In this document: positions 170 to 52,906 of the stretch, one piece after another
Numbering within the stretch: the first letter of the stretch is position 1
How the letters are laid out: every line of letters starts with the position of its first letter
Assembly (NCBI GenBank): GCA_009829735.1
Contig: CM020618.1
Location: forward strand, 41,965,030 to 42,029,029
DNA: 64,000 bases
From: Pyropia yezoensis
Lineage: Eukaryota > Rhodophyta > Bangiophyceae > Bangiales > Bangiaceae
Direction of reading: 5' to 3'
Notes under the pieces: generated by a model
What the model was told of the DNA's origin: nothing
Databases searched by the model: none
Seen by the model: the letters and a program-made list of their open reading frames with translations, nothing else
Made by a program: the position numbers and the translations under genes

Positions 170-2287
170 ATGTCCAGTTCCGAGATCCAGGCTGGGCCCG
201 TGGTTCCGGCGGCGAGTGTTGTGGAGGAGAACTCGGGTAGTCGCGCCCCTCTCCTGCCTCCGGTTCCTCGGATGTCGGTGCCGGCGCCGGTCGCTACGGC
301 GGGGACGGATCGAGTTCCCCCGGCTTCCGCGATGCACCCGGTCGAGGCCCCCCCGGAGGGTCTCCCGGAGATGCTTCTTGGGCAGGACCCTCTGGCGGCC
401 CGGCGTTACTCCACGGTGGTCGGCAACGCCGGCGCGGCCCAGTGCCAGCAGGATTGCATGGACCTCTGGCGCAAGGAACTCCAGCGCGGGGTCTTGACCG
501 AGATGGACAAGGCACGTCTTCACACGGCGGACCAGATGCGCCTGGCACAAGACCGCTCCCAGAGCTTCTCGGGTTCCTCTTGGGTTGCTCGTCTGGAGGA
601 TCTCCCCTTCGCGCTGGTACTGGATCTACCCTTGACCGAGCGTCGCGTGTCCGCGTCCGTTCTCCGGTGGCCGGAGGAGGAAGGGTACGTCTACCGGGCG
701 CTCAAGGTCTGGGATGAGGCGCTCAAGGGGTCGGGAAGCTTGAACTGCGACCCCCGTCCGAGCATGGTCGCTCTGGAGCCGCCTTTCTTGACCCGGAAAT
801 ACTCCAAGTTGTCGCCGGCACGGGAGCAGGGTGAGCGACGCGGGCGTCAGCGTGACTTCCTTGTGAGCTGCAACCACCAGGAGTTCTGGAAGCTGGACAA
901 GGCTAACCGGGCGGCATACTACCCCAAGGTCATCCCGCAGCAGCAGGAAGTCGAGATCCCGGTCGGGTTTGCTCCTTCCAGCATCCCTTGCACCTGGTAC
1001 TTCTTGGACGCCTTGACTCAGGCGTCGATCAAGGGCTTCTTCCACTCAATCCCGTACATGATGTACACGTCCGAGATGACAGTCTTGGCGGCCAACCACT
1101 GGCTTCATGAGGTCTTGGTGTCCAACCGGCTTTGGTTTCTCCCTGACCTCCTGATGGTCTGGATTGTCGACAAGTTGACCGTCGACTTCCTGTGCAGCCA
1201 GGACGAGGAGTACAAGGAGCTCTTCCAGGCGATGATCGACTTCCGGCGTCTGGTGCCGGTGCATGACCGGAACTTCTTGAACGCGATTGCCGACCAGAAC
1301 CGCCCGCGTCGGGATGGCTTCGGTTGGGCGCAGGTGGTCTACCAGTCTTCTCCGGCCAAGGTGCAGCTGGCGACGCCGCTTCCGGCGTGGCCGCAGCTAG
1401 GTAGCTTTCCTGCTCCGGCCGCCCTTGATCTTCTGCCAGTTGGGCCGCCGGTGCAGGAGTCGGGATGGGCCGCGGCGGTCGGTCGGGCGTCTGCGGCGGC
1501 TCCGCTTCCTCCGGTTGCCCCTGTCGCCCCGGTCGCCTCGCCTGAACCGTCACCGGCACGTCCGCGCCCTGTTCCGGCTGTGCCAGTACTTCAAGCTCCT
1601 CCGGCACCGCGCTTGTCTGCGGCGAGTCTGGGAGTGGCCGTGCGGTCGCCGATTACTCCGGCCGCTCTACCCCGGACGCCTTCTTCCAACGCCGGCGGCG
1701 CTGTGCCTCCGCTGGAGTTGGGCACTCCGGTCTCGGGGGCCGTTGTGGACCGTCCGGTAGTGTCATCCTCGGGCCGGTTCGAGATTCCGGCGCCGACTCT
1801 GCGCCTTACCCGCTTCCGGGTGCCTGACTGGTACCTGAACCAAGGTGGTCCAACATGCGACCAGTACGACGTCGGCATGATTGAAGACCAGCTGGGTCGT
1901 CTTCCGGTGCAGGTTGAAGGCGTCGGGTCCTCTCTGGTGCTGGGTACTTACGCCAGCGTCTTGAACGACGTGGTCGACCGGGTGTTTGCTTGCGCGGACA
2001 GCGGCCAGATGTCGAACAACCCGGTGGTTGGCGAACTTCTGGCGACTTTGACGCGGCATGGCCTGGCCCAGCAGTGGTCAGAGACCTTCACGGGCTTCCA
2101 GCGGCGCCGACGGACATATCTGGATGAGCGGGAGCCACCGGCAACTACTGGTACTACTCCGATGGCGTCATACCGGGATGCGCCGCGTCCACCGCACTAC
2201 GTCATCCCGTCTTCCTCCGGTTCCCGTCGTACCGCGGAGGCAGCGCCGGAGGACACTCCCGCGGCTCAGCGTCCGCGCCGGGAGTAG
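170..2287 (+). CDS. Antisense ORF of family 1 retrotransposon, 705-aa protein of unknown function
   Basis: The frame is open from ATG at 170 (Met-Ser-Ser-Ser-Glu) to TAG at 2287 and runs opposite to gag-pol of the same element, between pol and the 3' LTR. The ATG is chosen because copies C and D share it; the frame is open a little further upstream without support. Roughly, residues 1-60 are low complexity, 80-430 a conserved globular part (YYPK near 249, EVEIPVGF near 260, MTVLAANHWLHEVL near 302), 430-550 a Pro/Ala-rich linker, 553-640 a second conserved part, and the tail is basic (QRRRR near 644). No signal peptide, membrane segment, zinc knuckle or polymerase motif is visible. The only relatives I can see are in C, D and, more distantly, the family 2 antisense genes. 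Function unknown; plant Grande/Tat-type elements also carry antisense genes, but no sequence link is claimed. Confidence 0.85.
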   Translation: MSSSEIQAGPVVPAASVVEENSGSRAPLLPPVPRMSVPAPVATAGTDRVPPASAMHPVEAPPEGLPEMLLGQDPLAARRYSTVVGNAGAAQCQQDCMDLWRKELQRGVLTEMDKARLHTADQMRLAQDRSQSFSGSSWVARLEDLPFALVLDLPLTERRVSASVLRWPEEEGYVYRALKVWDEALKGSGSLNCDPRPSMVALEPPFLTRKYSKLSPAREQGERRGRQRDFLVSCNHQEFWKLDKANRAAYYPKVIPQQQEVEIPVGFAPSSIPCTWYFLDALTQASIKGFFHSIPYMMYTSEMTVLAANHWLHEVLVSNRLWFLPDLLMVWIVDKLTVDFLCSQDEEYKELFQAMIDFRRLVPVHDRNFLNAIADQNRPRRDGFGWAQVVYQSSPAKVQLATPLPAWPQLGSFPAPAALDLLPVGPPVQESGWAAAVGRASAAAPLPPVAPVAPVASPEPSPARPRPVPAVPVLQAPPAPRLSAASLGVAVRSPITPAALPRTPSSNAGGAVPPLELGTPVSGAVVDRPVVSSSGRFEIPAPTLRLTRFRVPDWYLNQGGPTCDQYDVGMIEDQLGRLPVQVEGVGSSLVLGTYASVLNDVVDRVFACADSGQMSNNPVVGELLATLTRHGLAQQWSETFTGFQRRRRTYLDEREPPATTGTTPMASYRDAPRPPHYVIPSSSGSRRTAEAAPEDTPAAQRPRRE

Positions 2288-2543: not shown

Positions 2544-5500
2544 TCAGGCCGCGGGAGTGCCCTCAATCCCGTTCCGTCGCGTGTAGGCACAGACGTCCGC
2601 GATGGGTAGCCGGTTTGAGGGTTCCCATGTATCATCTGCCGGGTTGAAACCGAACCAGCGTACTCGCAGGTACAGGCGTCCATCTCTCCAGGCATGGTCG
2701 ACAAACTTGACGTAGACAAATTCCCGACCTTCTTCTTGGGATAGCCAGGGTATCGCAGTCCGCTTACGCCGGGTCAAGTCCCGTTGGCTTGGCGGTGGAG
2801 CTCGGGTGACATGGTCGCTGCTCACCCGGTACGGAGAGCCATCCACGTCTAGAAGGAAGGTCCAGCCATCCGTATTGAGAATCTCATAAGGTCCATCCGT
2901 CTTAGAGTCCAGCTTCCCCCGGGTCTTGCTATGGTTGTCCACAAAAACCCAGTCGCCACCACCCAGTTCCTTGTTCTTTTCCCGGACACCCTTGTCATAG
3001 TCCCGCTTGTATCGCTCCTGGGTCTTTGAAATTGACTCCTTGACTCTTGGGAGCAGGAGCTTTAGTTGTTCCAGGAACTCATCCTTTGCCTTGGGACCTG
3101 ACTTCAGTGCAGGCTGGAGACCATCCGGTATTCTTTCCAGGGAGAAGTTGGTCAGCCGCCTCGGGGTGACAAAGTCGAGTGGAGCGACTCCCGTTGTCCG
3201 GTGAACTCGGGAGTTGTAGGCTAGAGTGAGGACAGCCAGGAGCTCGTCCCAGTCTTCTTGGTGCTCCTCCACGTAGTGCCGTAGCATGTCCACTAGGGTC
3301 CGGTTGAATCGTTCCACCTGGCCGTTCGTTTGAGGGTGGTACGTCGTGGTGTACAAGTTCTTGATGCCCATCAGGTCGCAGACTCCTTGGAAGAACAGGG
3401 ATGCAAACTGGGGACCGTTGTCGGTTAAGACGGAGTCTGGAGGGCCGTAGGCAGCTATCCAGTACTCGCAGAAGGCCGACGTGACATCCAGAGCCGTGAT
3501 GGTTCTCAACGGGATTGCTCGAGTGAACTTGGAGAACCGGTCACAAATGATGAGCAGGTATATGTTGCCACTGGAGGTCTCAGGTAGGGGCCCCAGGATG
3601 TCCATGCTTAAGCTTGCAAAGGGCTCCGCCGCAGGGAATAGGCGTAGCTTAGAAGTCTTCTTCCTCTGGGACAACCGGTTCCTTGCACAAGAAATACAAG
3701 CCTCCAGGCACTTATGGACGTCACTGGCCATGGTTTCCCAGTAATAATGTCGTCTCATGGAAGCATACATCCGATTGATACCAGGATGCCCGGCCTGGGG
3801 AGACGAGTGCTCCAGGCGTAGGATGTCAGTCCGTAGGCTCCGGGGTACGTAGACTTGAGTTGCCCCATCGAAGGGTGACACCCGTACCAGGAGTCCGTCT
3901 GTAGACTCGGAGAAGCGACTGTTCCGGTTCAGGTCCATTTGGTGGCGAAGCTCCAAGCATTGAGGGTCCGTCAATTGTGCCTCCAGCATCCGGTGAATGG
4001 TTACCGGTTGATGAGCGTCAGGTGTCTCGTACAGGGGAGCGTGCCAGCCACGTCCGACATTCGGGAGGATGAAGCAAGGTATTTCCTCCGGGATAGGACC
4101 GGTATCGGCTGCAGGAGTCTCCAGCCGGGACATGGTGTCGGCGCAGTGATGCTCCCTCCCTGCTCTGGTGCACACCTTGTACTTGAACTCCGAAAGGCGT
4201 AGGCGCCACCGGGCGACCCTTCCTTGACTGCTGTCCATGCATAGCAGCCACCTTAGACTGGCGTGGTCCGTCCGGATGAGGAACTCTTGTCCTTCAAGAT
4301 ATGGACGTAACAGGAAGCAAGCCCAGACGACCGCCAAGCACTCGCGCTCGGTCGTGGAATAGTTCTTCTCGGCTGGAGTCAAGACGCGACTGTAGTAGCC
4401 TATCGGGAGGAAGTGCCCATCAGGTTGCTGCTGGAGTAGTGAGCACCCCACCTGGACGCCACAGGCGTCAGTCTCCAGAACAAACTGACCCTCCCGCTTG
4501 GGTAACGCCAGTACTGGGGTGGTGGTCAGGCGCTTCTTGAGCTCTTCGAAGGCTGCTGTCTGCTTCTCGTCGAACACCGGGAGTTGTGCTGGAAGCTTCT
4601 TGCTAGTAAGCTTGGTCAAGGGCCGGGCAATCAGAGCGTAGTCTCGTACGAACCGGCGGTAGACGTTGCACATACCCAGGAAGCTCTTGAGTTCCGTCTG
4701 GGTTTTAGGTTGCCGTGCATGCCGGAGGGCCTTGATGTTCTTCTCATTGACTCGGAGCTCCCCCGGACTCAGCACGTGCCCCAGGTACTCCACCTCAGTC
4801 TCAAACAGGTGGCACTTCTCGGCCTTGAGGGTAACTCCAGCCTTGGACAGGAGGGCCAGGACCTCTCGAAGGTGCTCCAGGTGTTCCGCTGGGGTCTTGG
4901 AGAAAACAATGATGTCGTCCAGGTAGACCAAACATGTTCTCCACCTTAGCCCGGACAGGATGATGTCGATGGCTCTCTGGAAGGTTGCCGGAGCATTAGT
5001 GAGACCAAAAGGGAGACGCTTGCACCGGAACAGTCCCATGTGGCACGTGAAGGTAGTCTTGTCCTTGTCCTCGTCAGCCAGAGGGATCTGCCAGTAACCG
5101 GCATTACAATCCAGCGTCGAGAAGAGGGTGGCATCACCAAGAAAGTCGAGGCAATCATCCATCCGGGGTATCGGGTATACATCCTTGACTGTCATCTCGT
5201 TCAGGCGTCTGTAGTCAACGCAGAAACGGAAGTGACCGCCAGGTTTCGGGACGACTACCACCGGGAAAGCCCACTCGCCATCAGACGGCTCGATAACATC
5301 CATCTTGAGCATCTTGTTAACCTGCTTCTCAATCTCATCCCGGCGATGAGGTCCAGCCCGGTATGGGTGCATGTGCACTGGTTTGGCATCTGGCTTGAGT
5401 TGAATCCGGTGTAGGGTGGCGTCCATCTTGCCCAGCTCTCCAGACCACAGGTGCCGATATTCGTGGAGAAGCTTCTCCAGTGCCTCCTTCAAGTCGGGAG

Positions 5501-6533
5501 GGACGTTTTCTTGGTTGACCTTCGGCATCCCGGGCGGTGCTTGTTCCGGCTTCGGAGTAGTACGGCCAGCCTGCTCTTGTTCCGGAGATACGTCTAAGGC
5601 CGTCAAGTTGGATGCCAGCTCTTGTTGCAGGTTGAAGAGGTCTTCCTTGCTCATAGCGCGGGCGGACCCCCGGTAAGGCTCTGCTGTACCAACTCGAGTG
5701 CCCTTGGCGAGGGTTATTGGCTTCCGGCTCACGTTGACGATCAGCACCGAGAACGGGGTGTGCCTCCCCACCTTCTTGTGATGTCCGTGGGCTAGGTATA
5801 ATCGGTGTTTCGCCAGAAATTCCTTGCGTCCATAGATCAGGCATTGACCTGCAGTCCGGGTCGTGACTTGAACCTTGGTCTCCGAGCGGGGAGGTAGGAG
5901 CACCGGTTTGATGAGGGTCAAGGTAGAGGGTGGGATGCGTTCCTTCTGGTTCTTGGCCACACGAACCTTGGTGTCCAGGCGCTCCAGCACTGGTGACACA
6001 AACCCATGGTTGAACTGCACCTTTCCTTCTCCGGGTAGGATGCTCTTGACATGCTGCTTCTGGAAGTCCCAGCCTAGGATGAGGGGGACTGATAAGGTCT
6101 TGACTACTAGAAAGGGAAAAAGCATTGGTTCATTGTTGACATAGATGGCGACGGGAAGACGGCCAAGCGGTCGTAGGGTTTGACCTGATGCGTCTACAAT
6201 CCGGGTCTTGGTAGGCGCTCTCCAGGCATGTCGACGCCAGCCCGGAGGTAACAGGTTCTCAGTGATGACGCTTGGTCCGGCTCCCGTGTCGACCACCGGC
6301 GTAACAGCTTGGGGGAGGCTATCCCCCACACGCATACGAGCATTAATCTTGAGGTTTTCCTTACGCAGGACGAGCAAGGTCCCCTTGAACAAACAGGGTG
6401 TCCAGGCGGCTACCGGTTGAGCAGGTAACTGCCGTCCTTTCTCCCGGCACGCAAGGGGAGAACAGGTAGAAGTACCCTGCCGTTGGAGATTCGGGAAGAC
6501 ACTTGGGGAGAGCGCCTGCCCTACTCGTTTCCC
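2544..6533 (-). CDS. pol: Ty3/gypsy Pol polyprotein (PR-RT-RH-IN-chromodomain), element A
   Basis: This polyprotein copies the element RNA and integrates the DNA. Numbering from the TTG at 6392 (1282 codons): protease DTGAG near 35; RT with FCVDYRRLN near 388 and YLDD near 487; RNase H with TDACG near 639 and RTDHASL near 706; integrase zinc finger near 860-900; catalytic D in LSMDILG near 929, D in TDNGPQFAS near 990, E in VERFN near 1024; chromodomain-like end near 1205-1260 (VRWFGFNPADDTWEP). The frame opens after a TAA just upstream of the gag stop and has no ATG before the protease, so translation most likely enters by -1 frameshifting from gag at 6527-6533. Compared with C and D, an AGA-to-TGA change removes about 36 C-terminal acidic residues. 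Confidence 0.95.
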   Translation of the reverse strand, partial: GKRVGQALSPSVFPNLQRQGTSTCSPLACREKGRQLPAQPVAAWTPCLFKGTLLVLRKENLKINARMRVGDSLPQAVTPVVDTGAGPSVITENLLPPGWRRHAWRAPTKTRIVDASGQTLRPLGRLPVAIYVNNEPMLFPFLVVKTLSVPLILGWDFQKQHVKSILPGEGKVQFNHGFVSPVLERLDTKVRVAKNQKERIPPSTLTLIKPVLLPPRSETKVQVTTRTAGQCLIYGRKEFLAKHRLYLAHGHHKKVGRHTPFSVLIVNVSRKPITLAKGTRVGTAEPYRGSARAMSKEDLFNLQQELASNLTALDVSPEQEQAGRTTPKPEQAPPGMPKVNQENVPPDLKEALEKLLHEYRHLWSGELGKMDATLHRIQLKPDAKPVHMHPYRAGPHRRDEIEKQVNKMLKMDVIEPSDGEWAFPVVVVPKPGGHFRFCVDYRRLNEMTVKDVYPIPRMDDCLDFLGDATLFSTLDCNAGYWQIPLADEDKDKTTFTCHMGLFRCKRLPFGLTNAPATFQRAIDIILSGLRWRTCLVYLDDIIVFSKTPAEHLEHLREVLALLSKAGVTLKAEKCHLFETEVEYLGHVLSPGELRVNEKNIKALRHARQPKTQTELKSFLGMCNVYRRFVRDYALIARPLTKLTSKKLPAQLPVFDEKQTAAFEELKKRLTTTPVLALPKREGQFVLETDACGVQVGCSLLQQQPDGHFLPIGYYSRVLTPAEKNYSTTERECLAVVWACFLLRPYLEGQEFLIRTDHASLRWLLCMDSSQGRVARWRLRLSEFKYKVCTRAGREHHCADTMSRLETPAADTGPIPEEIPCFILPNVGRGWHAPLYETPDAHQPVTIHRMLEAQLTDPQCLELRHQMDLNRNSRFSESTDGLLVRVSPFDGATQVYVPRSLRTDILRLEHSSPQAGHPGINRMYASMRRHYYWETMASDVHKCLEACISCARNRLSQRKKTSKLRLFPAAEPFASLSMDILGPLPETSSGNIYLLIICDRFSKFTRAIPLRTITALDVTSAFCEYWIAAYGPPDSVLTDNGPQFASLFFQGVCDLMGIKNLYTTTYHPQTNGQVERFNRTLVDMLRHYVEEHQEDWDELLAVLTLAYNSRVHRTTGVAPLDFVTPRRLTNFSLERIPDGLQPALKSGPKAKDEFLEQLKLLLPRVKESISKTQERYKRDYDKGVREKNKELGGGDWVFVDNHSKTRGKLDSKTDGPYEILNTDGWTFLLDVDGSPYRVSSDHVTRAPPPSQRDLTRRKRTAIPWLSQEEGREFVYVKFVDHAWRDGRLYLRVRWFGFNPADDTWEPSNRLPIADVCAYTRRNGIEGTPAA

Positions 6534-8281
6534 GGCTCCGAGGAGTCCTTAGAGGTTTCGGTCTCCAGGTCAAAGTCCGTAGGAGCTTCCCTTGCCAGAG
6601 CCTCCGTGATGCTCTGTAAGGTTGCCACTCGGATGGCATGTACCTGTGCCTTGTCCATCTTGGAGGGTGCCCGCCGGTCAGCCCAGTTGACCGCCTTTGC
6701 AAACACCAGTCCTTGACGCTTGAGTTTCTCCTGGAGATCCTCGGGAATGGTCGGGCACTGGTAGGACATATGATCCTCCTTCTGGCACAGCCAGCAAGAC
6801 CGGAACCGCTGGTTCCTGATCTGCTTGGGGGCGACCAGGGAAGGTTGCTCCTTAGAAACGAAGCCGCCCCACTTGTCCCTTGACTCCATGGGTGAGGCCT
6901 CGCCAACTGCGAGTACCGGTACAGGGTTATCACCTCCCTTATACTTGTCGGGTCCGGGACGAACTCGCGACAACGGCTTGGGGGTTGATACCATAGGAGC
7001 CTGGAGGGCCTTGGCTTGCCGGTGCTTGCCCTGGGTATAGGCCATCAACTGCTGGAAGGTATGTTCTTGATGTTCCTGGTTGTAGTTCTCCGCATCCACT
7101 TGAAGATATTCAGGAAGCCCCTCCGAGAAGATCATCTTGAGCCTGTCCTCAGGGTAAACGTTGCCACAAGCATCGCTCATCTCCCGGACACGACGGGCGA
7201 ACGCCTCTGGAGTCTCTTGTCTCTCCATGGTTGCCCGGTTCAGCCTACCGACTGCCTTACGCAGGGAGTCCGCGTCTGCGTAGTTGGACAGGAGCCAGTT
7301 GACCGCCTCCGGATAACTCGCGACGGTACGTCCAACAATGTGCCCGGCAGAGTCTGGTAGAACCTGTGCAAACCGCTGTTCCGCTTCTCCGGTCATGAAG
7401 TTAACCAGGAGATAGAGAGCCTTGCCCTCGGACACATCGTTGTCATTGCATGCCTTGACAAACCGGCGCAGGAAGGCAAAGATAAGCGCCGGTCTCTTCC
7501 CGGAAAACTTAGGATGCCCCCCAAAGCTCGGCTGCATTCGCCGGTTCAGGGATGCCATCTTCTTGGCCATCTTCCGGGTGTAACCTTGGTCTTGGTTCTC
7601 CAGCCGGTAGTTACCCCAATACGTGACCTTGTTCAGGGTGGCATCTCCCACTTGGTGGGCAGGGAAGTCGAACTCGACTAGCCTGCGCCGGGTAGGACCG
7701 GGAGATGCATCCCAGTCATATCCCTCCTCAGAGCTGGAGGAACTGGTCTCGCTGGTGCTAGAGCGGCGGCGACGACGCCGACGCCTACGGCTGCTCCGGT
7801 CACCGGTCTTGGAGCTCCCCGCCCCATAGGACGCAAGGGGAGGAAAAGCTTGGCCGGTCCCAGGAGTCGAAGTCTCAGGAAGACCCGTAGAACCAGTCAT
7901 AGCGGTGCCTCTGGCACTGCTAGTGCCCACAGGAAGAGGTGTATACACCCAGCTGCCATGTGTGGGTCCAGGAGTAAACACACCAGGGGCTATCCCTGGA
8001 GGTTGAAGAGTAGAACCGACAGGAGGGAGACGTCTGCTGCGAGCGGACTCAAACGCCGTTGACCCCGGGGTGGCTCCCACCGGAGGAACAGCCGGAGGAA
8101 CGGGAGCAGGCGGTACTTGGCCGCCTGTAGACTCCAGTCCACTACCGGATGTCACGCCCAGGTCTGCTTCACCCGTAGGGAGAACGCCGGGTTGGGCACC
8201 GTCCCCCGCGGTGACCAGGGATGCGTCAAGGGACGCGGGGTCTACCCCTTCGGGCACCGTCGTGCCAGGGAGGGTAGCCAT
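6521..8281 (-). CDS. gag: Gag nucleocapsid/capsid protein, element A
   Basis: This 586-aa structural protein packages element RNA in virus-like particles. The N-terminal third is Pro/Gly/Thr-rich, followed by an Arg run near 165-175 next to a Ser/Glu-rich stretch. The central part (about 210-400) is a retrotransposon capsid-type region, and one zinc knuckle CWLCQKEDHMSYQC lies near 494-507. The ATG at 8281 follows the 5' LTR, primer site and a leader of about 190 bases. The last codons are CCG GGA AAC GAG TAG, which holds the frameshift heptamer. The frame is undamaged. Confidence 0.93.
   Translation of the reverse strand: MATLPGTTVPEGVDPASLDASLVTAGDGAQPGVLPTGEADLGVTSGSGLESTGGQVPPAPVPPAVPPVGATPGSTAFESARSRRLPPVGSTLQPPGIAPGVFTPGPTHGSWVYTPLPVGTSSARGTAMTGSTGLPETSTPGTGQAFPPLASYGAGSSKTGDRSSRRRRRRRRRSSTSETSSSSSEEGYDWDASPGPTRRRLVEFDFPAHQVGDATLNKVTYWGNYRLENQDQGYTRKMAKKMASLNRRMQPSFGGHPKFSGKRPALIFAFLRRFVKACNDNDVSEGKALYLLVNFMTGEAEQRFAQVLPDSAGHIVGRTVASYPEAVNWLLSNYADADSLRKAVGRLNRATMERQETPEAFARRVREMSDACGNVYPEDRLKMIFSEGLPEYLQVDAENYNQEHQEHTFQQLMAYTQGKHRQAKALQAPMVSTPKPLSRVRPGPDKYKGGDNPVPVLAVGEASPMESRDKWGGFVSKEQPSLVAPKQIRNQRFRSCWLCQKEDHMSYQCPTIPEDLQEKLKRQGLVFAKAVNWADRRAPSKMDKAQVHAIRVATLQSITEALAREAPTDFDLETETSKDSSEPGNE
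6527..6533 (-). promoter_or_regulatory. Probable -1 ribosomal frameshift site G GGA AAC (gag/pol, A)
   Basis: The heptamer GGGAAAC is in the X XXY YYZ phase relative to gag codons and sits two codons before the gag stop. Slipping back one base enters the open pol frame directly. The same heptamer, phase and distance occur in G (62483-62489), in decayed D (18143-18149) and in family 2 E2 (50850-50856). A hairpin TTCTCCC/GGGAGAA lies tens of bases downstream in family 1 copies; whether it stimulates shifting is unknown. Confidence 0.7.
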
Positions 8282-8469: not shown

Positions 8470-8486
8470 CCCCTGCTGCTCCACCA
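8470..8486 (-). other. Primer-binding site, element A (TGGTGGAGCAGCAGGGG)
   Basis: The site lies four bases inside the 5' LTR on the minus strand and starts with TGG, the complement of a tRNA CCA end. It implies a primer tRNA with acceptor 5' strand GGAGCAG. Family 2 uses the same site. I cannot name the tRNA. Confidence 0.75.
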
Positions 8487-8490
8487 AATA

Positions 8491-9062
8491 TGTGGTATAA
8501 AACTCGATCCTCTCAGACACGTGTCAATATCCCTCGGGGGAAAGGGACAGGTAACGCAGAAAGGGGAACTACGAGAATGGTATGCCTGTTGCCTCACGTG
8601 CCTGCTCGCAGGGCAAACAGATACGCACGGTAGTGCACACGGGGAAGAGGAAAGCAAACGCGCAGTTGTCTTTTTCCCTGAGGGCGCGGGCCGAGGGCGC
8701 CTCGCTGTCCCTCTTAACGTGCATCTGGGGGAACCCCGGCACGTTGGCCCGGTAGCCCCCCCATAACCCCGAGTGGCCCCGACCCGAGTCTAACCTCGTC
8801 AGGTCGGGGGCCACTATCACTACTAATTCTATTCCCACTCACTAATCTCACACTCAAATTCTCTCAAATCAAGTCCCTCACAAATATGCAAAAACACATC
8901 AGAAATCCCTCTCTCGCGTGTGGATAGCGTAGTCCACCGCATCCCAGTGCCGGGCACGGGCCACGGCCGCCAACCATCGCCACACGGCGGGCGTGTTCTG
9001 GCACCTGGTGCCCTCTGGTTGCAGTCCCGGGTCGGCGCCAAGTCGGGGCCAGGGATGCTACA
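8491..9062 (-). repeat. 5' LTR of element A (572 bp)
   Basis: On the minus strand it starts TGTAGCATCCC and ends TTTTATACCACA. Copies of the same repeat are at 24689-25259 (D) and 55617-56189 (C). The inner edge is set by the primer site, the outer edge by resumption of element B sequence at 9063. Confidence 0.93.
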
Positions 9063-13306: not shown

Positions 13307-13329
13307 CGGTTTTGATGACGGTTGCTGCT

Positions 13330-22389: not shown

Positions 22390-24506
22390 CTACTCCCGGC
22401 GCGGACGCTGCGCCGCAAGAGCGTTCTCCAGCGCTGCCTCCGCAGCACGACGGGACCCAGAAGAAGACGGGATGTCGTAGTGCAGCGGGTGAGGAGCTTC
22501 CACGTACCCCGCCACCGGAGTAGTACACGTGGTCGCCGGGCGCCCCGCTCCCCCAGATACGCCTGCCGGCCCCCCTGGAAGCTAGTGAAGGTCCCCGACC
22601 AACGCTGGGCCAAGCCATGCCGCGTCAAGGACGCCAGAAGCTCACCAACCACCGGGCTGTCCGACATCTGGCCGCTGTCCGCGCAAGCAAGCACCCGGCC
22701 GACTACGTCGTTCAAGACGCTGGCGTATGTGCCCAGCACCAAGGAAGTCTCCACGCCTTCGACCTGCACCGGAAGACGACCCAGCTGGTCCTCAATCATG
22801 CCGACGTCGTACTGGTCGCACGTCGGGCCACCTTGGGTCAGGTACCAGTCGGGCACCAGAAAGCTGGAAAGGCGCAGGGTCGGCGCCAAGGTCTCGAACC
22901 GACCCGAGCTTGCCACACCCGGACGGTCAGCAGCGGCGCCGGAAATCGGAGTCCGCAACTCGAGGGTGCGCACCGGGCCGCCACCAGACGTAGAAGGCGC
23001 CCAAGGAGGAACGGCCGGAGTAGCCGGTGCCCGGATGGCAACGCCAAGAGCCGCCGCAGACAAGCGGGGTGCCGGAAGAGCCTGAGGCACCGGCACAGGT
23101 AGAGCTGGGCGCATACGCGCCGGCGACGGCAAAGGCGAAGCAACCGGGGCGACAGGCGCAACTGGAAGAAGTTGAGACGCCACAGACGCTCGACCGACCG
23201 CGGCGGCCCATCCCGACTCTTGTACCGGCGGCCCAGTCGGCAAAAGATCAAGAGCGACCGGAGCAGGAAGACTGCCCAGCTGCGGCCACGCCGGCAGAGG
23301 CGTCGCCAGCTGCACCTTGGCCGGAGAAGACTGGTAGACCACCTGGACCCAGCCCGAGCCATCCCGGCGCGGGTTGTTCTGGTCGGCGATCAGATGCAAG
23401 AAGCTCCGGTCATGCACCGGAAGCTGACGCCGGAAGCCGATCATCGCCTGGAAGAGCTTCTTGTACTCCTCGTCCAGGCTGCACAGGAAGTCGACGGTCA
23501 ACTTGTCGACGATCCAGACCATCATGAGGTCGCGGAGAAGCCGAAGCCGGTTGGACACCAGGACCTCGTGGAGCCAATGGGTGGCCGCCAAGACCGTCAT
23601 CTCGGAGGTGTACATCATGTACGGGATGGAATGGAAGAAGCCCTTGATCGACGCCTGGGTCAAGGCGTCCAGGAAGTATCACGTAAAGGAGATGCTGGAC
23701 GGAGCAAACCCGACCGGGATCTCGACTTCCTGCTGCTGCGGGATGACCTTGGGGCAGTACGCCGCCCGGTTGGCCATGTCCAGTTTCCAGAACTCTTGAT
23801 GGTTGCAGACCACGATGTAGTCACACTGGCGCCCAAGCCGCTCGCCTTGCTCCTGCGCCGGCGACATCATGGAGTACTTCCGGGTCAAGAAAGGCGGCTG
23901 CGAAGCGACCATGCTCGGACGGGGATCACTAGTCAGGCTCTTCGACCTGTTGAGCGCCTCGTCCCAGACCTTGAGCGCCCGCTGGACGTACCCTTCCTCC
24001 TCCGGCCACCAGAGAACGGACGCAGACACGCGACGCTCGGTCAAGGAATGATCCAGCACCAGCGCGAAGGCGAGATCCTCCAGACGTGCAACCCAAGAGG
24101 AACCCGAAACGCTCTGGGAGCGGTCTTGAGCCAGGCGCATCTGATCCGCCGCGTGGAGACGAGTCTTGTGCACCTCCGTCAAGACCCCGCGCTGGAGTTC
24201 CTTGCGCCAAAAGACGAGACAATCATGCTGGCACTGGGCCGCGCTGGCTTTTGCGACCACCTTGGAGTAGCGCCGGGCCGCCAGAGGATCCTGCCCAAGA
24301 AGCATCTCCGGGAGACCCGCCGCGGGGGTCTCGACCGGGCGCGACACAGAAGCCTGGGGAACTCGATCCGCCTCTGCCGTGGCGACCGACGCCGGCACCG
24401 ACATCCAAGGAACCGGAGGCAGGAGAAGGGCACGGCCGCCCGAGCTCTCCTCCGCAACACACGCCGCCGGAGCCGCGGGCCCAACCAGGATCTCGGAGCT
24501 GGACAT
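22390..24506 (-). pseudogene. Antisense ORF of element D, lightly damaged
   Basis: Homologous to the 705-aa antisense proteins of A and C along its length, from Met at 24506. One TGG-to-TGA stop lies at 23679-23681 (same frame continues after it), and the C-terminal 50 or so codons are frameshifted near 22550. Over 67 codons in the conserved core (about 23395-23595) I count nine synonymous and seven non-synonymous codon differences from A. The convergent arrangement relative to pol is the same as in A. Confidence 0.85.
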
Positions 24507-39524: not shown

Positions 39525-41465
39525 CTAGGCATGCATGCTAGACTCTCCAACCCCACGGCCCTCGCCCTCACGTAGAGGCGAGCGGCGAGACCCACGCCGA
39601 TACCGGTCTCCACTCGTTGGAAGGGGCGGCGGCTCCAAGTCGGAGCCGTCGCCCTCACGGTCGCGCAAGTGGCGCCGACCGTGGCTACTCTTCTGCCTGG
39701 TTTTGCGCGCAAGTTTGCGACGCAGACGCTGGACAGACTCCGTCTCCGACGGGGTAGATGACTCCGAGACGGAGTAGGACAACTCGTCTTCCGACACGGA
39801 GGGAGAGCGCCGCGAGTGTCGGCGACGACGGCGAGGAGGCGAGTATGCCCGGCTCGCACGACGTTTGCCACGCCCAAGTGGGGCTGGCTGGGGCATAATA
39901 GCCCCAATGCGAGCCAACTCGGCCGTCATAAACTCCGCCACCGACTCGCAACTCGCGGTCGCCACTGCAGTACGAACGCGCTCCTCAAGTTGAGGAGTCT
40001 CGGAGCTCTGGAGGGTTGCGGTCGACGCGGCCAACCAGGAAATGGTGCGCACCAACGTGGTGATCATCATCTCTGAGGTTAGAGGCGTGGGCGGTAACAC
40101 CAACTTGGGGTATACCGTCAGGAGGGTGGCCCCCAAGTTGGGGGACACCGGGGTGGACGATTCAACGGCCACGCTAATCGGGATGTTCCCGTGAGGCTGG
40201 AAAGGAACAGGAGGAAGCGGAGGGGCACGCCGAGGTGGCGGTACCCGGGTGTAACTGCGACCCCGACTTGGGGCCCCCGCAGTGGGTTGAGTCATGTGGT
40301 CATCATAGGACGGCACGGCCGTAACTATGGGCTTGTCCGGGGGTGGCGCAGTGTGGCGATCCACCCCCGGGGCATACGGGTATTCCCCGATGCTCAACCC
40401 CTCTCGTAGGACCACACGGCCGTCGTGAAGTTCACAAGCGACCCACACGAACTGGCGAAGTGCGCCATCGTCCTTGGGCCCACGAGTGGGGCGGCGCAAC
40501 TTGTGCTCGATGCTCTCCCACTCGATAAACTTGTGGAGGCGGAGCATCCCCTCAAGTAGAGTGAGTTGTCCTGATGAGCACCCCTCAGCAACTAGCTGAG
40601 GGGTGAGCTGTTCCAAACCTTGGATGAGCCGGAGGGGGAGATGCCAGAGCATCCCCCGCCGCTGAACACAAGACACCCAGGTCGACATGATCTCGAGGAG
40701 CCACTGGGTGGCCAAAATGGCCCACACCAGGTGATCAGGGCCAGCCGTCAACATGACGGAGCCGAAGTGGTCAAGCAACCGTGGCAGCAACGCCGGGAAC
40801 CCGTAGGGGACCTCAACTTGAGGCCACCACTCGGGCCTCTTGGGATAGTACTGCTCCTTACTGGCAGCAAACTGTTGAGGAAGCTCAAGTTGAGCCGAGG
40901 TCACCAAGTAGGGACCTCGCCGGAAGTCCTTCTCCATCCGCACATCAAAGTGATGAGTGTGCGGATCGGCCTCGTGGAGGTACGGGGGGCGAGTTGCCAC
41001 CGCGTCCCAAGTAAAGGTCGGCAAGTCGCCGGGACCCGGGATAGTTCCCCCGCGGTCCACCATGGCCTTGGCACGCTGAACGTCCTCAACCTCCTCATCG
41101 TCCAGGAAGGCAAACTGGTCCGTCCTGAAGCCGGCAGGGAACCCGACCCTACGGGGATACTTCTCCCGTAGGCGGTCCTATACCCGACCCATCGCTGCGC
41201 CAAGTCGGCCACAGAGAAGAACAGTCAACCCCTCCTCATATAGAGGCCAAGCGGGGTAAAACCACCGCCCCAAGGCCTCACGCGGGACAACTTGTCCCGC
41301 CTCCGGGGGAGACCCCGCCGTCAGCCCAATGCCGGGTGACGCGGGAGTCCCATCCCCCGGAGCGATCTCGGAGCCCCCGCCGGAAGTCCCGGCGGGTGCT
41401 GCACCGTAGGTGGTGTCCTCCATACGCTCATCTAGCGAGTCCGTCTCCACTCCCGGGGTCGCCAT
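39525..41465 (-). CDS. Antisense ORF of family 2 (E1 copy), with in-frame TAG
   Basis: Starts at ATG 41465 (Met-Ala-Thr-Pro-Gly-Val) and ends at 39525, convergent with pol. A TAG at 41178-41180 divides it; reading through gives about 646 residues, and a product starting after it from 41063 would have 512. The core has YYPKRPEWWPQVEVPYGF and WLLEIMSTWV, matching the spacing of YYPK, EVEIPVGF and WLHEVLVSN in the family 1 antisense protein. The C-terminus is rich in Arg/Ser and Glu/Ser (SPPRRRRRHSRRSPS), resembling an RS or nuclear-localisation region. E2 carries the same TAG. Function unknown. Confidence 0.72.
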
Positions 41466-44004: not shown

Positions 44005-44473
44005 TGTAACAAAAACCACTTGCACACACGACACCCAAGTTGGGGCGGTGTGCAAGGGCTGCCTCCCGTGTCGGGGGAACCGGAAGAGGTGCAAGTCGCA
44101 CACACTCTGTCCCTGTTGTGGGGTAAACCCCCCACGGACAAACAAGAGGATGGTGTGTGGTCCAACAGTTTCTTGGTCGGGACGGGGACGCAGGGCCAAG
44201 CCCCGCTGTCCCCCTCCTTATCCCCCCAGGGTCCCCTCAGAATCTCGCCACTCAGAATCTCCCACCCCAGCACCTGCCCACCGGGCCACACGAAAATTCA
44301 AGACGATAAATGCAGAAAACCCTCAAATCCAAGTTGGATTTACTACTAAGCTAACTATCCCAAACTTAGGGAATACGGACCCAAATGCAGGGGGAGGAAC
44401 GGGTCAGGCTAGTGGCCTGCCGCCCCTTGCATGGCACGTGTTTCCCCCCTACCTGGGGGTCAATACTGCCACA
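44005..44473 (-). repeat. 3' LTR of element E2 (469 bp)
   Basis: Pairs with 52907-53375, same length, with a modest number of substitutions. The polypurine tract (CTGAGGAGAGGGGAG on the minus strand) is at 44474-44488. Confidence 0.95.
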
Positions 44474-44811
44474 CTCCCCTCTCCTCAGTTCCGACCGACC
44501 CGGTCGGCCCTGTGAGGGGGTGCGTAAACGCACGTCTCGGCGTTGGGGGCGCGACTTGCTGCCCCCCCCGGAGTACGTAACGCGGATGTGGAGGCGGTCA
44601 CGTTGACCGCCCCCCTCATCAAGCTTGCCCACTCGGCAGCTTGCTCTCCTCAGTTCACACTCCACCACCACCACCACCTCCCCTTCACCTTCCACTGAGC
44701 CGCCCCACGCTGAGGAGGCCACCCGTATACCCACGATCCGAGTCCCCCTCAACTCGAGGCGGGTCTCGTGCCGCGATAGCCAGCGCGTCTCTCCCCAACT
44801 TGGGGAGAGCC

Positions 44812-46752
44812 ATGGCGACCCCGGGAGTGGAGACGGACTCGCTAGATGAGCGTATGGAGGACACCACCTACGGTGCAGCACCCGCCGGGACTTCCGGCGG
44901 GGGCTCCGAGATCGCTCCGGGGGATGGGACTCCCGCGTCACCCGGCATTGGGCTGACGGCGGGGTCTCCCCCGGAGGCGGGACAAGTTGTCCCGCGTGAG
45001 GCCTTGGGGCGGTGGTTTTACCCCGCTTGGCCTCTATATGAGGAGGGGTTGACTGTTCTTCTCTGTGGCCGACTTGGCGCAGCGATGGGTCGGGTATAGG
45101 ACCGCCTACGGGAGAAGTATCCCCGTAGGGTCGGGTTCCCTGCCGGCTTCAGGACGGACCAGTTTGCCTTCCTGGACGATGAGGAGGTTGAGGACGTTCA
45201 GCGTGCCAAGGCCATGGTGGACCGCGGGGGAACTATCCCGGGTCCCGGCGACTTGCCGACCTTTACTTGGGACGCGGTGGCAACTCGCCCCCCGTACCTC
45301 CACGAGGCCGATCCGCACACGCATCACTTTGATGTGCGGATGGAGAAGGACTTCCGGCGAGGTCCCTACTTGGTGACCTCGGCTCAACTTGAGCTTCCTC
45401 AACAGTTTGCTGCCAGTAAGGAGCAGTACTATCCCAAGAAGCCCGAGTGGTGGCCTCAAGTTGAGGTCCCCTACAGGTTCCCGGCGTTGCTGCCACGGTT
45501 GCTTGACCACTTCGGCTCCGTCATGTTGACGGCTGGCCCTGATCACCTGGTGTGGGCCATTTTGGCCACCCAGTGGCTCCTCGAGATCATGTCGACCTGG
45601 GTGTCTTGTGTTCAGCGGCGGGGGATGCTCTGGCATCTCCCCCTCCGGCTCATCCAAGGTTTGGAACAGCTCACCCCTCAGCTAGTTGCTGAGGGGTGCT
45701 CATCAGGACAACTCACTCTACTTGAGGGGATGCTCCGCCTCCACAAGTTTATCGAGTGGGAGAGCATCGAGCACAAGTTGCGCCGCCCCACTCGTGGGCC
45801 CAAGGACGATGGCGCACTTCGCCAGTTCGTGTGGGTCGCTTGTGAACTTCACGACGGCCGTGTGGTCCTACGAGAGGGGTTGAGCATCGGGGAATACCCG
45901 TATGCCCCGGGGGTGGATCGCCACACTGCGCCACCCCCGGACAAGCCCATAGTTACGGCCGTGCCGTCCTATGATGACCACATGACTCAACCCACTGCGG
46001 GGGCCCCAAGTCGGGGTCGCAGTTACACCCGGGTACCGCCACCTCGGCGTGCCCCTCCGCTTCCTCCTGTTCCTTTCCAGCCTCACGGGAACATCCCGAT
46101 TAGCGTGGCCGTTGAATCGTCCACCCCGGTGTCCCCCAACTTGGGGGCCACCCTCCTGACGGTATACCCCAAGTTGGTGTTACCGCCCACGCCTCTAACC
46201 TCAGAGATGATGATCACCACGTTGGTGCGCACCATTTCCTGGTTGGCCGCGTCGACCGCAACCCTCCAGAGCTCCGAGACTCCTCAACTTGAGGAGCGCG
46301 TTCGTACTGCAGTGGCGACCGCGAGTTGCGAGTCGGTGGCGGAGTTTATGACGGCCGAGTTGGCTCGCATTGGGGCTATTATGCCCCAGCCAGCCCCACT
46401 TGGGCGTGGCAAACGTCGTGCGAGCCGGGCATACTCGCCTCCTCGCCGTCGTCGCCGACGCTCGCGGCGCTCTCCCTCCGTGTCGGAAGACGAGTTGTCT
46501 TACTCCGTCTCGGAGTCCTCGACTCCGTCAGAGTCGGAGTCGGTCCGGCGTCTGCGTCGCCAACTTGCGCGCAAGACTAAGAAGAAGAGCAGCCGCGGTC
46601 GTCGCCACTTGCGCGACCGTGAGGGCGACGGCTCCGACTTGGAGCCGCCGGCGCTGCCGACTGGTGGGGAGCGTTATCGGCGTGGGTCTCGCCGCTCGCC
46701 TCTACATGAGGGCGAGGGCCGTGGGGTTGGAGAGTCTAGCATGCATGCCTAG
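44812..46752 (+). CDS. Antisense ORF of family 2 (E2 copy), with in-frame TAG
   Basis: The frame runs from ATG 44812 to TAG 46752, opposite to gag-pol. A TAG at 45097-45099 interrupts it; the codons on both sides are in one frame (AAMGRV before it, DRLREKYPRRVGFP after it) and the part after it aligns with the family 1 protein (VEDVQRAKAMVD against VYRALKVWDEAL). Residues near 206-225 carry YYPKKPEWWPQVEVPY; a conserved helical block (LATQWLLEIMSTW) follows, then a Pro-rich linker, a second helical block (LEERVRTAVATASCESVAE), and an RS-rich tail. No catalytic motif or membrane segment is visible. Downstream of the TAG a start at 45214 is annotatable but lacks special support. Confidence 0.75.
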
Positions 46753-46863: not shown

Positions 46864-49800
46864 TCACGTTGAGGGAGGGCTGTTAGGGTCTATCTCATTC
46901 CGGGCACAGTACGCCCGGACCTTCTCAGCGGGAAGGTCCTCCACATACTCCCTCGTATCATCCTTGGCTTTGTAGCCAAACCAACGCACCCTCAACATAA
47001 GGCGGTCAGTGTCCTCATCCCATCCGTGGTCGATGAACTTATCGATCACGTACTCCTGCGGGCCCTGTTTGGCCGCAGGCAGTGAGGGGAGGCGCCACGC
47101 TTCCAAAGCACACGCCCAAGCTGGGTCGCCTGCAGGTGGTGGTGCAACTTTGACCACGTCCTGTCCGTTCACTGTGCGGACCTCATCGTCACTTTCGATG
47201 GTGAAGCGCCGCCCATCAGTACGAAGGACCTGGTACGGCCCCTTCGTCTGGAATACCAACTTACCCCCAGTTGGGATGTGTGAGGGGACCAATACCCAGT
47301 CACCCTGCTCGGGGACATGCTTGGCGTTGCGCACCTTTTTGTCAAAGGTACGCTTGTAGCGCTTTTGCGCTTCGTCCATCTCAGCCCTGACTTTAGGGAT
47401 GAGTTCTTCAAGCCTAGCAGCGAACTCCTCGTTGCTCTCAGTGGGAGTAGGCGTCCTGCCACCATCCTCCCTAGTTGGGAGCGGCCGCCGCACGGCAATA
47501 GACCGCACGCGACGGGGGGTCACAAAAGCGAGGGGTACTTCCCCGGTAGATGAGTGAACCTGCGAATTGTAGGCAGTAGTAAGGATAGAAATGTATTGGT
47601 CCCACGTTTTCACGTGCTCACTCACATAGTGGCGCAGCTGCCTAACAATAGTTTTGTTGAAGCGCTCCACCTGCCCATTAGTTTGTGGGTGGTAGGGGGT
47701 GGCATAGTTTGCCCGCCCCGCCAACATATCCAGCACTCCCTGAAACAGTACAGACGCAAATTGCGGTCCATTGTCCGATAGTGTACTATCCGGGATGCCA
47801 TACGCGGCAACCCAGTGATCTAGGAAGGCTGACACGACCGACATGGCCGTGATCTCCGCCAGTGGGATCGCTCGCGTAAGTTTCGTAAAGCGGTCACAGA
47901 TGACCAGGAGGTACTGGTTGCCCTCCTCGGTCACTGGCAGTGGCCCAAGAATGTCCATCGCCAACGCGGCAAAGGGCTTCTTGGCCGGGAACAATAGCAT
48001 AGCCGTAGTAGGCCGCCGTTCCATCAGACGGTTCTGCGCACAACTTGTGCAGGCAGCCACCCAACTGTAGATGTCCACCACCATGGACGGCCAGTAGTAC
48101 CTGGTCCTCAGGGTCCGGTACAGTTTACTAGACCCCAGGTGTCCACCTGTGGGAGCGTTATGCTCCCTCTCAATAATACTGTCCTTGAGGGATGCGGGGA
48201 CGACAAGTTGTTCGGTCCCCTGGAATACCCCCCTCCTCATGAGGAGGCCATCGTCTTCCAGAAAGAACCGCGTCTCCGCCACTGTATCCAGCGTATCCCT
48301 CTGCGACTTGCAGAAGGGGTCCTCGGCCTGGGCCTTCACCACCTCTTCCAGGGACAGGGGCAAGTACTTCTTGTTCCCTGGCGCCTCGGGGTCCAACGCC
48401 TGACCTGAGCGCGTGGCTACCCCCACGATGGGGATGTCCTCATCGCCTGGGTTAGTGTCCAGCCCCTCGGTAGGTACCCGAGAAAGGCCGTCGGCAAGGG
48501 CATGTTGCCTGCCAGGTCGGTACTCAATATCAAAGTTGAAGGGTGCCAGTCGCACCCTCCACGTGTTGAGGCGTGTGTTCGTGCGATCCGTCTTGAAGAT
48601 GAACTGCAACGCGCGGTGGTCACAGCGGATGAGGAACGTCTCACCCTCTAGGTAGTGAAGAAGTGACGTCACCGCCCACACCACTGCGAGTCCTTCCAAC
48701 TCGGTGACTCCATAGTTCTTCTCCGCCGAGTTCAGGCCCTTGCTGAAGTATCCCACCGGCAAGTACTCCTTGTCCGGCTGCTGCTGAAGCAACACACAAC
48801 CAAGTTGGTCGTAGCTAGCGTCCACGTCCAGGATGTAGTGGCCTCCCAACCTGGGAATAGCCAAGATAGGGGGCTTCAGCAGAAGGTCCCGAAGAGTCTC
48901 GAAGGATTCCTGCTCCACCCGACTTGGGGGAGGCAGGTTCTTCGGTAGCGCTGAGCTCACTAACTCATTCAACGGTTTCGCCACCTTGGCGAAGCCCTGG
49001 GTGAAGCGTCGGTACACGTTACACATCCCGAGGAAGCTCCTCATCTGGGTCTGGGTCCGGGGGTACTGAGCCTTACGGATGGCCCTCAAGTTTTTCTCGT
49101 TGACACTGAGGCGCCCCGGACGGACAACATGTCCCAAGTATTCCACCTCCTGAGTGAAGAGGTAGCACTTACTCGCCTTCAGTGATACACCGGCGTCAGC
49201 AAGTAGCTTGAACACCTGGCCAAGATGGCCAATGTGTTCCTCCGGACTTCGGGAGAACACAATGATATCATCTAGGTACACGAGACAGATCTGCCACCGT
49301 ACTCCGGCCAGAATCATGTCCATAGCGCGCTGGAAAGTTGCCGGCGCGTTACACAGGCCAAACGGTAGACGCTTGCACTGGTAGGTACCACAGTGACAGG
49401 TAAAGGTAGTTTTATGCCTGTCCTCCGGGGCAATGGGAATTTGCCAGTACCCCGCGTTACAGTCCAGGGTAGAGAACACGTTCGCCTCCCCCAGAGAGTC
49501 CAGACAGTCGTCCATCCTAGGTAGGGGATAACTGTCCTTCACCGTGCTCTCGTTGAGCTTACGGTAGTCGATACAGAACCGGGGGGTCCCATCAACTTTG
49601 GGGACGATAACCACCGGACTCGCCCTCTCGGCGTTGCTGGCCTCGATCACATCGAGGGCCTCCATGCGAGCAACTTGCTCCTTAACGAGGGCCCTTGAAC
49701 GGGGTCCTCCCCTATACGGTTGTTGGCGTATAGGGGGTGCACCGGGCTTCAACTCGATTCGGTGTGGGGTGGCTCTCATGAGTCCCAATTGGCCATCCCA

Positions 49801-50856
49801 CAACTTGTGATATTGGTCCAAGAGGCGTTCAACTTGAACTCTCAACCTGGGCGGGACACCCTCCATGTTCACATGGCGCCGAGGAGAGGCGGCCGCCTTA
49901 GCTTGGTGCTTCTCCTTTCCGGACTTCGGGTCGCTACTTGCGCCCACGTTGAGGGTGGCCGCTACTACCGGTCCCTCATGTTGGTCGATATAGCCGAACT
50001 TGGCTCCCGACTTGAAGTACTTGGGCGACGAGCTCAGATTCATAACCTGGATCCTCCACGGGACTCCGGCTTTGGAGTCCATCGTGCCAAGGGCGACATG
50101 CACTTGGTGCTTGCGAGCAAGACGGGGGTGAGGGTGCACCAACCCGTTCCCCGTATAATCAGTTACAACATCAACGTGCGCCACCGAGTTGGGGGGCAAC
50201 GTGACTTCACAGGCTAAACGCAGAGTAGCAGTAAACGCTTCCCTCACAGAGCAATCAGGCTTCGACTGTGAGACTGTCACAGGAGCGACAGACTTTCCCT
50301 TACCAAGGATGGGGATAGTCTCCCCATTCATCAACTTGACCCAGTACTCAGGGCCACAAATCAAAAACACTTGTGTAACAACATAAGGGGCACCCAGAAG
50401 CAGGGGTACCGATATATTCTCGACTACTCCATAGGTCACGTCGACCTCATGGGTCCCCAACCTAGTTGGTAGGGTCACGGCACCAACGATGGGAAGTACC
50501 CCACCATTGATGTCGATCAGATGGTCAGCTTTAGACTTCCAGCTTTGGAGCTTCATTTCCTTTGGTAATAGCGACTTGCGTATCAAGGAGGCTCCTGACC
50601 CGGTATCAAGTACGATACGGGCACAACAGGCACGGCCGGGGGCTAGTTGCACCCGTCCAGCCGCCTGGAAGTTCTCTCCCGTCAGCACCGCGATGACCCG
50701 ACGTGGGTTTACGTTCTTGGGGAGTCCTACCCGAGGTGGGCGGACTCCCTTAGGTCGCCGCAGTATCCGGCACGGTTGATTCGTCCTCTTGGTCCACTTG
50801 GCAGAGGCTGCCTTTGTGAGCTTCGGACGACCAGCTCCAACGGTCATTCGTTTCCC
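46864..50856 (-). CDS. pol: Ty3/gypsy Pol polyprotein, element E2
   Basis: 1327 codons from an ATG at 50847 that overlaps the gag stop. Protease VLDTGSG near 80; RT FCIDYRKLN near 424 and YLDD near 521; RNase H LDVDASYDQLG near 672; integrase finger EREHNAPTGGH to CTSCAQNR near 892-934; catalytic D in LAMDILG near 966, D in SDNGPQFAS near 1024, E in VERFNKT near 1059; chromodomain-like end near 1272-1315, where the usual DDTWEY reads DDTREY in this copy. Entry is probably by -1 frameshifting at 50850-50856; reinitiation at the overlapping ATG is an alternative. No stops or frameshifts are visible. Confidence 0.96.
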   Translation of the reverse strand, partial: GKRMTVGAGRPKLTKAASAKWTKRTNQPCRILRRPKGVRPPRVGLPKNVNPRRVIAVLTGENFQAAGRVQLAPGRACCARIVLDTGSGASLIRKSLLPKEMKLQSWKSKADHLIDINGGVLPIVGAVTLPTRLGTHEVDVTYGVVENISVPLLLGAPYVVTQVFLICGPEYWVKLMNGETIPILGKGKSVAPVTVSQSKPDCSVREAFTATLRLACEVTLPPNSVAHVDVVTDYTGNGLVHPHPRLARKHQVHVALGTMDSKAGVPWRIQVMNLSSSPKYFKSGAKFGYIDQHEGPVVAATLNVGASSDPKSGKEKHQAKAAASPRRHVNMEGVPPRLRVQVERLLDQYHKLWDGQLGLMRATPHRIELKPGAPPIRQQPYRGGPRSRALVKEQVARMEALDVIEASNAERASPVVIVPKVDGTPRFCIDYRKLNESTVKDSYPLPRMDDCLDSLGEANVFSTLDCNAGYWQIPIAPEDRHKTTFTCHCGTYQCKRLPFGLCNAPATFQRAMDMILAGVRWQICLVYLDDIIVFSRSPEEHIGHLGQVFKLLADAGVSLKASKCYLFTQEVEYLGHVVRPGRLSVNEKNLRAIRKAQYPRTQTQMRSFLGMCNVYRRFTQGFAKVAKPLNELVSSALPKNLPPPSRVEQESFETLRDLLLKPPILAIPRLGGHYILDVDASYDQLGCVLLQQQPDKEYLPVGYFSKGLNSAEKNYGVTELEGLAVVWAVTSLLHYLEGETFLIRCDHRALQFIFKTDRTNTRLNTWRVRLAPFNFDIEYRPGRQHALADGLSRVPTEGLDTNPGDEDIPIVGVATRSGQALDPEAPGNKKYLPLSLEEVVKAQAEDPFCKSQRDTLDTVAETRFFLEDDGLLMRRGVFQGTEQLVVPASLKDSIIEREHNAPTGGHLGSSKLYRTLRTRYYWPSMVVDIYSWVAACTSCAQNRLMERRPTTAMLLFPAKKPFAALAMDILGPLPVTEEGNQYLLVICDRFTKLTRAIPLAEITAMSVVSAFLDHWVAAYGIPDSTLSDNGPQFASVLFQGVLDMLAGRANYATPYHPQTNGQVERFNKTIVRQLRHYVSEHVKTWDQYISILTTAYNSQVHSSTGEVPLAFVTPRRVRSIAVRRPLPTREDGGRTPTPTESNEEFAARLEELIPKVRAEMDEAQKRYKRTFDKKVRNAKHVPEQGDWVLVPSHIPTGGKLVFQTKGPYQVLRTDGRRFTIESDDEVRTVNGQDVVKVAPPPAGDPAWACALEAWRLPSLPAAKQGPQEYVIDKFIDHGWDEDTDRLMLRVRWFGYKAKDDTREYVEDLPAEKVRAYCARNEIDPNSPPST

Positions 50857-52787: not shown

Positions 52788-52888
52788 GTTGGCTAACGAT
52801 CCGTATGACACGGTCCAAGTCCACCGATCCTCTGAGACAGAGGGCCCCCTACACCCGGGTGCACCCGGAGGTAAAGTTTTCCTCTGTA

Positions 52889-52904
52889 CCCTGCTGCTCC
52901 ACCA
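52889..52904 (-). other. Primer-binding site, element E2
   Basis: TGGTGGAGCAGCAGGG on the minus strand, two bases from the LTR, shared with family 1. Confidence 0.75.
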
Positions 52905-52906
52905 AA

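Follow-up and report, generated by a model that had tools for sequence, protein, structure and literature searches.

The question raised by this locus is why Ty3-type LTR elements of Pyropia yezoensis carry a 705-codon open frame on the strand opposite to gag-pol, and whether that frame encodes a protein. The window, i.e., the whole stretch of 64,000 nucleotides that was analysed, consists by self-comparison of three Ty3-type LTR element families packed together (Table 1), family 1 being represented by copies A, C, and D and by a cut-off copy E. According to Pfam, the pol of families 1 and 3 has the Ty3-type order protease-RT-RNase H-integrase, with a single RNase H region in family 1. The chromodomain match reaches 20.4 bits in family 1, 23.6 and 12.0 bits in the two copies of family 3, and 39.4 bits in family 2, with a Pfam cut-off of 25.1. 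The family 1 element looks more like a chromovirus than like the plant Tat/Grande elements, although its chromodomain match is below the cut-off. In copy C, the 3' LTR stops about 12 bp short of the position that corresponds to window base 1, and so the 3' LTR of copy A would lie just outside the window. Exactly 500 N (an assembly gap) at 61025-61524 interrupt the pol of copy C, and copy E, past this gap, is oriented opposite to copy C.

Table 1. Positions of the antisense genes and of the elements that carry them, in window coordinates.
Feature	Position	Strand	Remarks
Antisense gene, family 1 copy A	170..2287	+	705 codons, no stops
Antisense gene, family 1 copy C	56376..58493	+	705 codons, no stops
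Antisense gene, family 1 decayed copy D	22393..24506	-	One stop and one 1-nt deletion
Antisense gene, family 3 full copy	44812..46752	+	In-frame TAG at 45097; 512 codons open from ATG 45214
Antisense gene, family 3 deletion copy	39525..41465	-	TAG from 41180; 512 codons open from 41063
pol, copy A	2544..6392	-	Pfam: protease, RT, RNase H, integrase; chromodomain match below cut-off
gag, copy A	6521..8281	-	Pfam: zinc knuckle match below cut-off
Putative primer-binding site TTTGGTGGAGCAGCAGG, copy A	8472..8488	-	Just inside 5' LTR; position counted by eye
5' LTR, copy A	8487..9062	-	Self-comparison
3' LTR, copy C	55613..56189	-	Self-comparison
Copy E, family 1	61525-64000	+	Window end falls before antisense region; absent from earlier note
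pol, family 3	46864..50847	-	Pfam
gag, family 3	50844..53138	-	Pfam, zinc knuckle
3' LTR, family 3 full copy	44010..44474	-	Self-comparison
5' LTR, family 3 full copy	52912-53376	-	Self-comparison
Family 2	9063-16429; 27906-35262; 53401-55616		Ty3 elements, antisense gene absent

In copies A, C, and D, the frame lies where an earlier note on this DNA had placed it, on the strand opposite to gag-pol, convergent with it, and between pol and the 3' LTR. Copies A and C both translate to 705 residues without a stop, as had been claimed, their proteins being 99% identical, and the damage described for copy D (one stop and a late frameshift) corresponds to a single stop and a 1-nt deletion at nucleotide 1963 of 2115. 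The frame is no shadow of pol either, given that, on the minus strand, the pol of copy A stops at 2544, 256 bp past the antisense stop. The antisense gene has its first ATG about 180 bp inward of the 3' LTR in family 1, the distance being about 340 bp for family 3.

The 65% GC content of the region lengthens chance frames, and some LTR elements are regulated by antisense RNAs. The locus could then produce a regulatory antisense RNA, the long frame being a by-product of GC-rich sequence. However, the longest stop-free run in 1-2543 has 761 codons, compared with a mean of 240 and a maximum of 547 for the longest run in any of the six frames of 1000 first-order Markov sequences made from this same segment; for family 3, the run of 550 codons also exceeds the simulated maximum of 499. 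Moreover, the differences at codon positions 1, 2, and 3 of the antisense frame, being 3, 5, and 16 between copies A and C and 82, 79, and 153 between copies A and D, show an excess at the third position. The remaining five frames of the copy A region have 8-18 stops. Among the six frames compared, omega is below 1 in two, the antisense frame and its phase-matched counterpart on the other strand. This counterpart is interrupted by 12 stops in copy A, so that an open frame and a low omega coincide in the antisense frame alone. Also, a codon usage model built from the element's own gag and pol ranks the antisense frame best of six in families 1 and 3, and protein similarity is found across these families, the pols of which are 44% identical. 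The explanation by an RNA alone is largely refuted by the codon evidence and we consider it scarcely credible. The antisense frame behaves as a protein gene, and its protein is under purifying selection.

The strength of this selection can be compared with that on the sense genes. Omega for the antisense gene is 0.207 between copies A and C and 0.324 between copies A and D (dN 0.112, dS 0.344), where gag and pol give 0.287 and 0.152, respectively; the antisense gene is therefore similar to gag and higher than pol, all A-D values being biased upward since copy D is decayed. The earlier note proposed a check of dN/dS over genomic copies, taking a value near 1 as contrary to a gene, and the values found against copy A are 0.121-0.311 in all 20 fetched loci of the family 1 type, over a dS range of 0.028 to 0.53. 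For the last third of pol, omega is 0.047-0.321 (measurable in 18 of the 20 loci). The antisense protein evolves faster than pol in most of these 20 loci, yet it is constrained. For family 3, omega is 0.068-0.304 in 36 of 36 pairs, and for family 4 it ranges from 0.193 to 1.32 over 21 pairs, the four values above 0.6 coming from pairs with just 8-34 differences. On the other hand, the noncoding flanks of the antisense gene differ by 13% and 16.5% between copies A and D, which is less than the synonymous sites (dS 0.34), and the A-D dS of pol is likewise high (0.31). These flanks may be constrained or slower-mutating; with them as the neutral reference, the protein would seem less constrained, because the flanks diverge less than the synonymous sites.

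A search of 107.5 Mb of the P. yezoensis genome scored at least 258 places with the antisense gene, at least 110 of them belonging to family 1, 84 to family 3, and 64 to family 4. All 20 fetched loci of the family 1 type and all 18 of families 3 and 4 show the gene convergent with pol (38 of 38 overall). Relative to copy A, it has neither frameshift nor stop in 15 of the 20 loci (the exceptions being L002, L014, L019, L020, and L021), and the last third of pol is free of such damage in 5 of the 18 measurable loci of the same set; the 38 loci were chosen from the match listings mostly for a long open frame, and their intactness does not represent a genome-wide rate. A search with the pol end only located 40 places (including copy A), of which at least 29 have an antisense match no more than 10 bases from the expected offset, and 27 of those 29 matches belong to frames that stay open for 705 codons or more. 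Dozens of family 3 antisense copies, distributed over all three chromosomes, have an identical score of 1098.1 bits, which suggests a recent burst. The published genome has three chromosomes, a GC content of 65%, and LTR elements as its main repeat, according to excerpts of PMC7423979. Light-harvesting genes are present in the genome searched (14 matches), and one of their proteins has its best PDB match in 7y5e, with 230 bits compared with 166 for the second best. The entry 7y5e comes from the red alga Porphyridium.

Anti-silencing factors occur in some plant DNA transposons, and the protein encoded here could similarly counter host silencing. It would fit this role as a large protein kept in high-copy families, the best-scoring matches being stop-free in 63 of 63 cases in family 1 and in 80 of 84 in family 3. 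However, it contains no known anti-silencing domain, and we regard this role as unlikely, if worth keeping in mind.

The earlier note described the gene as one of family 1, where it is indeed present; nonetheless, homologues are found also in family 3 and in family 4, the latter detected in the P. yezoensis genome by means of one public relative (at least 64 scored matches with 37-40% identity). The pol of family 4 is 55-60% identical to that of family 3. In family 3, both window copies have in common a TAG in the antisense frame. In 7 of 8 fetched loci elsewhere in the genome, the family 3 gene has 647 codons from the first ATG, and most of the scored matches (at least 84) correspond to a 724-codon stop-free run. 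Read from its first ATG, the family 4 gene is 638 codons long in 7 of the 10 loci fetched. Family 2 is different from these families, its pol being 27% identical to that of family 1. Its gap between pol and LTR is only about 0.1-0.4 kb (9063-16429 and 27906-35262), leaving no room for an antisense gene, and a comparison of 34 proteins with the window gave no match inside this family.

Relatives are also found among public proteins, for which the best candidates, about 7,990, were scored in each search. The family 1 query gave one relative at 98% identity, the alignment with family 3 added gave a relative at 57% together with P0007, and the alignment including P0007 gave 28 proteins (P0007 among them), all from JGI/ENA contigs; several of the public members are fragments. 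The claim that this protein has no relative is then true with respect to named families but not with respect to families 3 and 4 and these public contigs. One fragment, P0033, begins as an N-terminal piece of a metagenome-group protein and continues into sequence similar to the antisense strand of family 3 pol (40% over 48 residues, E 0.002), suggestive of a deletion copy. As a proof that the metagenome-group gene is antisense to pol, P0033 was rejected, the match of its tail being suggestive only.

Comparison of the protein sequences places family 3, family 4, and the metagenome group as homologous beyond doubt, with mutual matches of E 5e-46 to 2e-67 (5e-46 for the antisense proteins of family 4 and family 3) and hhalign values of E 3e-31. 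For family 1, the signal is 43.1 bits against family 3 and 43.5 bits against family 4, where the maxima of 100 local shuffles are 30.4 and 26.9, respectively; against the metagenome protein alone there is no excess, the score of 26.2 bits being equal to the shuffle maximum of 26.2. When the family 1 profile is compared with that of the other members, the probability is 84.5 and E is 7e-6 over 271 columns, with residues 137-436 matching in the same order. The similarity across families corresponds to a central domain of about 270 residues. Common descent of the family 1 gene with those of families 3 and 4 is much the likelier explanation, since the genes occupy the same place on the same strand of elements with related pols, and the string TTTGGTGGAGCAGCAGG of family 1, resembling a primer-binding site, is also present in family 3.

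This distribution bears on a further explanation, in which a captured host gene hitch-hikes in one element without function. The protein has no known host or viral relative, and thus an origin by capture is possible. However, a passenger would decay like a pseudogene, whereas this gene occurs in three families and is under selection in all of them, which makes a functionless passenger very improbable.

In the aligned members, a Pro/Ala-rich part at the N-terminus is followed by a Trp-rich central domain, then by a Pro-rich linker, and finally by a C-terminal stretch. The central domain is predicted, with low confidence, to be mostly helical, and the AlphaFold models were unusable (mean pLDDT of 33.3 for the 512-residue protein and 29.9 for the 705-residue protein). 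An Arg/Ser-rich C-terminal tail is present in family 3 and absent from the other families. Profile searches of Pfam, NCBIfam, and PHROGs gave no match over the cut-off, the weak matches involving single members (E 0.05-0.3, the best in Pfam being E 0.051), and the best values in profile searches of the PDB were E 0.77 and 0.97. Weak matches to a Rieske subunit in the PDB (E 0.005), found by sequence, cover the Pro/Ala-rich linker and were judged compositional. Also, one match in viral contigs (L001; 28 residues, E 8e-4) was judged to be due to chance; the other scans of viral contigs found no relative, and none of the 58 pattern matches in prokaryote contigs is a relative.

The protein could also be a structural or particle protein (a second Gag-like, an envelope-like, or a packaging protein) that is antisense-coded by happenstance. 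In agreement with this, the omega of the antisense gene is near that of gag, and excerpts of PMC6317226 speculate that ORFs downstream of the polyprotein in plant elements are env-like. However, an origin from gag was discarded, as profile comparison with the elements' two gag proteins gives probabilities of 0.05 and 0.08 and the BLASTP matches are at chance level. Moreover, the maximum Kyte-Doolittle mean over 19 residues is 1.54 in P0001, 1.38 in P0004, 1.71 in P0009, and 1.79 in P0008, i.e., 1.4-1.8 with no clear transmembrane segment in these four members. Because no strongly hydrophobic window of this length is present in them, the protein is likely soluble. A structural role is, in our opinion, rather improbable.

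Antisense accessory genes in LTR elements are known, mainly from flowering plants, and the kind of gene described here is thus not new. In Ty3 elements of the Retand/Tat type (maize Grande, rice RIRE2, and Silene Retand), excerpts of PMC11963269 describe antisense TRP28 (PF04195) genes, with a large antisense ORF between pol and the 3' LTR in nearly all Retand clusters, for which DNA binding and regulation are the proposed role; for Grande, a nuclear product and transcription from a promoter of its own are described. According to the same excerpts, Retand is classed as non-chromovirus and is found only in eudicots and Liliopsida (PMC11963269). The Pyropia elements resemble Retand in having an antisense ORF between pol and the 3' LTR, but they differ in their red-algal host, in looking more like chromoviruses, and in giving no PF04195 match in the members scanned (the window proteins and alignments A3, A5, and A10, with HMMER filters that lose very weak matches). 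On the algal side, REM1 of Chlamydomonas is a Ty3 chromovirus with a reverse-strand frame, which holds a truncated integrase (GPY/F module and chromodomain) in the excerpted description (PMC2774666). The Pyropia elements are likewise algal Ty3 elements bearing a reverse-strand frame; however, their integrase is in the sense pol, and the antisense protein has neither an integrase nor a chromodomain match in Pfam. The HBZ gene sits near the 3' LTR of HTLV-1. It is the antisense gene of that virus, as mentioned in part of PMC11963269. The likeness to HBZ is one of plan only, that of a retroelement with an antisense protein gene, the hosts being different. A survey of plant LTR elements, in its excerpted portion, defines an eORF-3'R class (at least 250 codons, in reverse orientation, in the 3' part of the element) and reports highly heterogeneous eORF proteins, with 314 groups in Ty3/gypsy (PMC6317226). 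In contrast to that survey, one similar protein spans Pyropia families with pols about 42-60% identical. The excerpts of PMC5348765, PMC5408684, PMC12477816, and PMC2864245 describe no such gene. In the open-licence literature, neither this protein family nor its red-algal chromovirus-like setting was found described.

Taken with moderate confidence, these data point to an accessory protein gene of related Ty3 (chromovirus-like) elements, driven by an antisense promoter near the 3' LTR, whose product would be a regulator. A separate antisense mRNA would start in or beside the 3' LTR and terminate within the narrow gap that separates the gene from the end of pol, and the protein would influence, in trans, how its element is expressed or integrated, e.g., through sense-strand transcription or through silencing. 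This role is modelled by analogy on the antisense genes of the plant Retand and Grande elements. The Arg/Ser-rich tail of family 3 could aid nuclear import or nucleic-acid binding, although the step of a nuclear regulator is a guess, given that the basic tail is confined to that family. We consider it an evenly balanced proposition that these genes encode a protein family with no earlier description and no relation to TRP28, which at least three red-algal Ty3 families have retained, as an antisense accessory gene, across their divergence. If true, the same unusual genome plan would have evolved independently in red algae and flowering plants, which would suggest that these elements generally require a regulator coded in antisense and provided with its own promoter. 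Since this second antisense family, with no relation to the plant ones detected, occurs in a small sequenced red-algal genome at 258 or more places and under selection that can be measured, both the role of the antisense protein and the reason for its reversed coding become testable. For the annotation of red-algal genomes, such genes could pass as orphan host proteins.

Finally, the two window copies of family 3 differ in their state of preservation. Most of gag-pol is missing from the copy at 37331-42271 and its 5' LTR is truncated, with its 512-codon antisense frame still open. It was considered as a clean non-autonomous element and rejected as such on account of the truncated 5' LTR, being only a decayed deletion copy. 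Also, the two copies are identical over roughly the initial 400 bp of their antisense frame (44812-45213 and 41465-41064) and show 30 differences in the following 1536 bp, as if this patch came from gene conversion or recombination.
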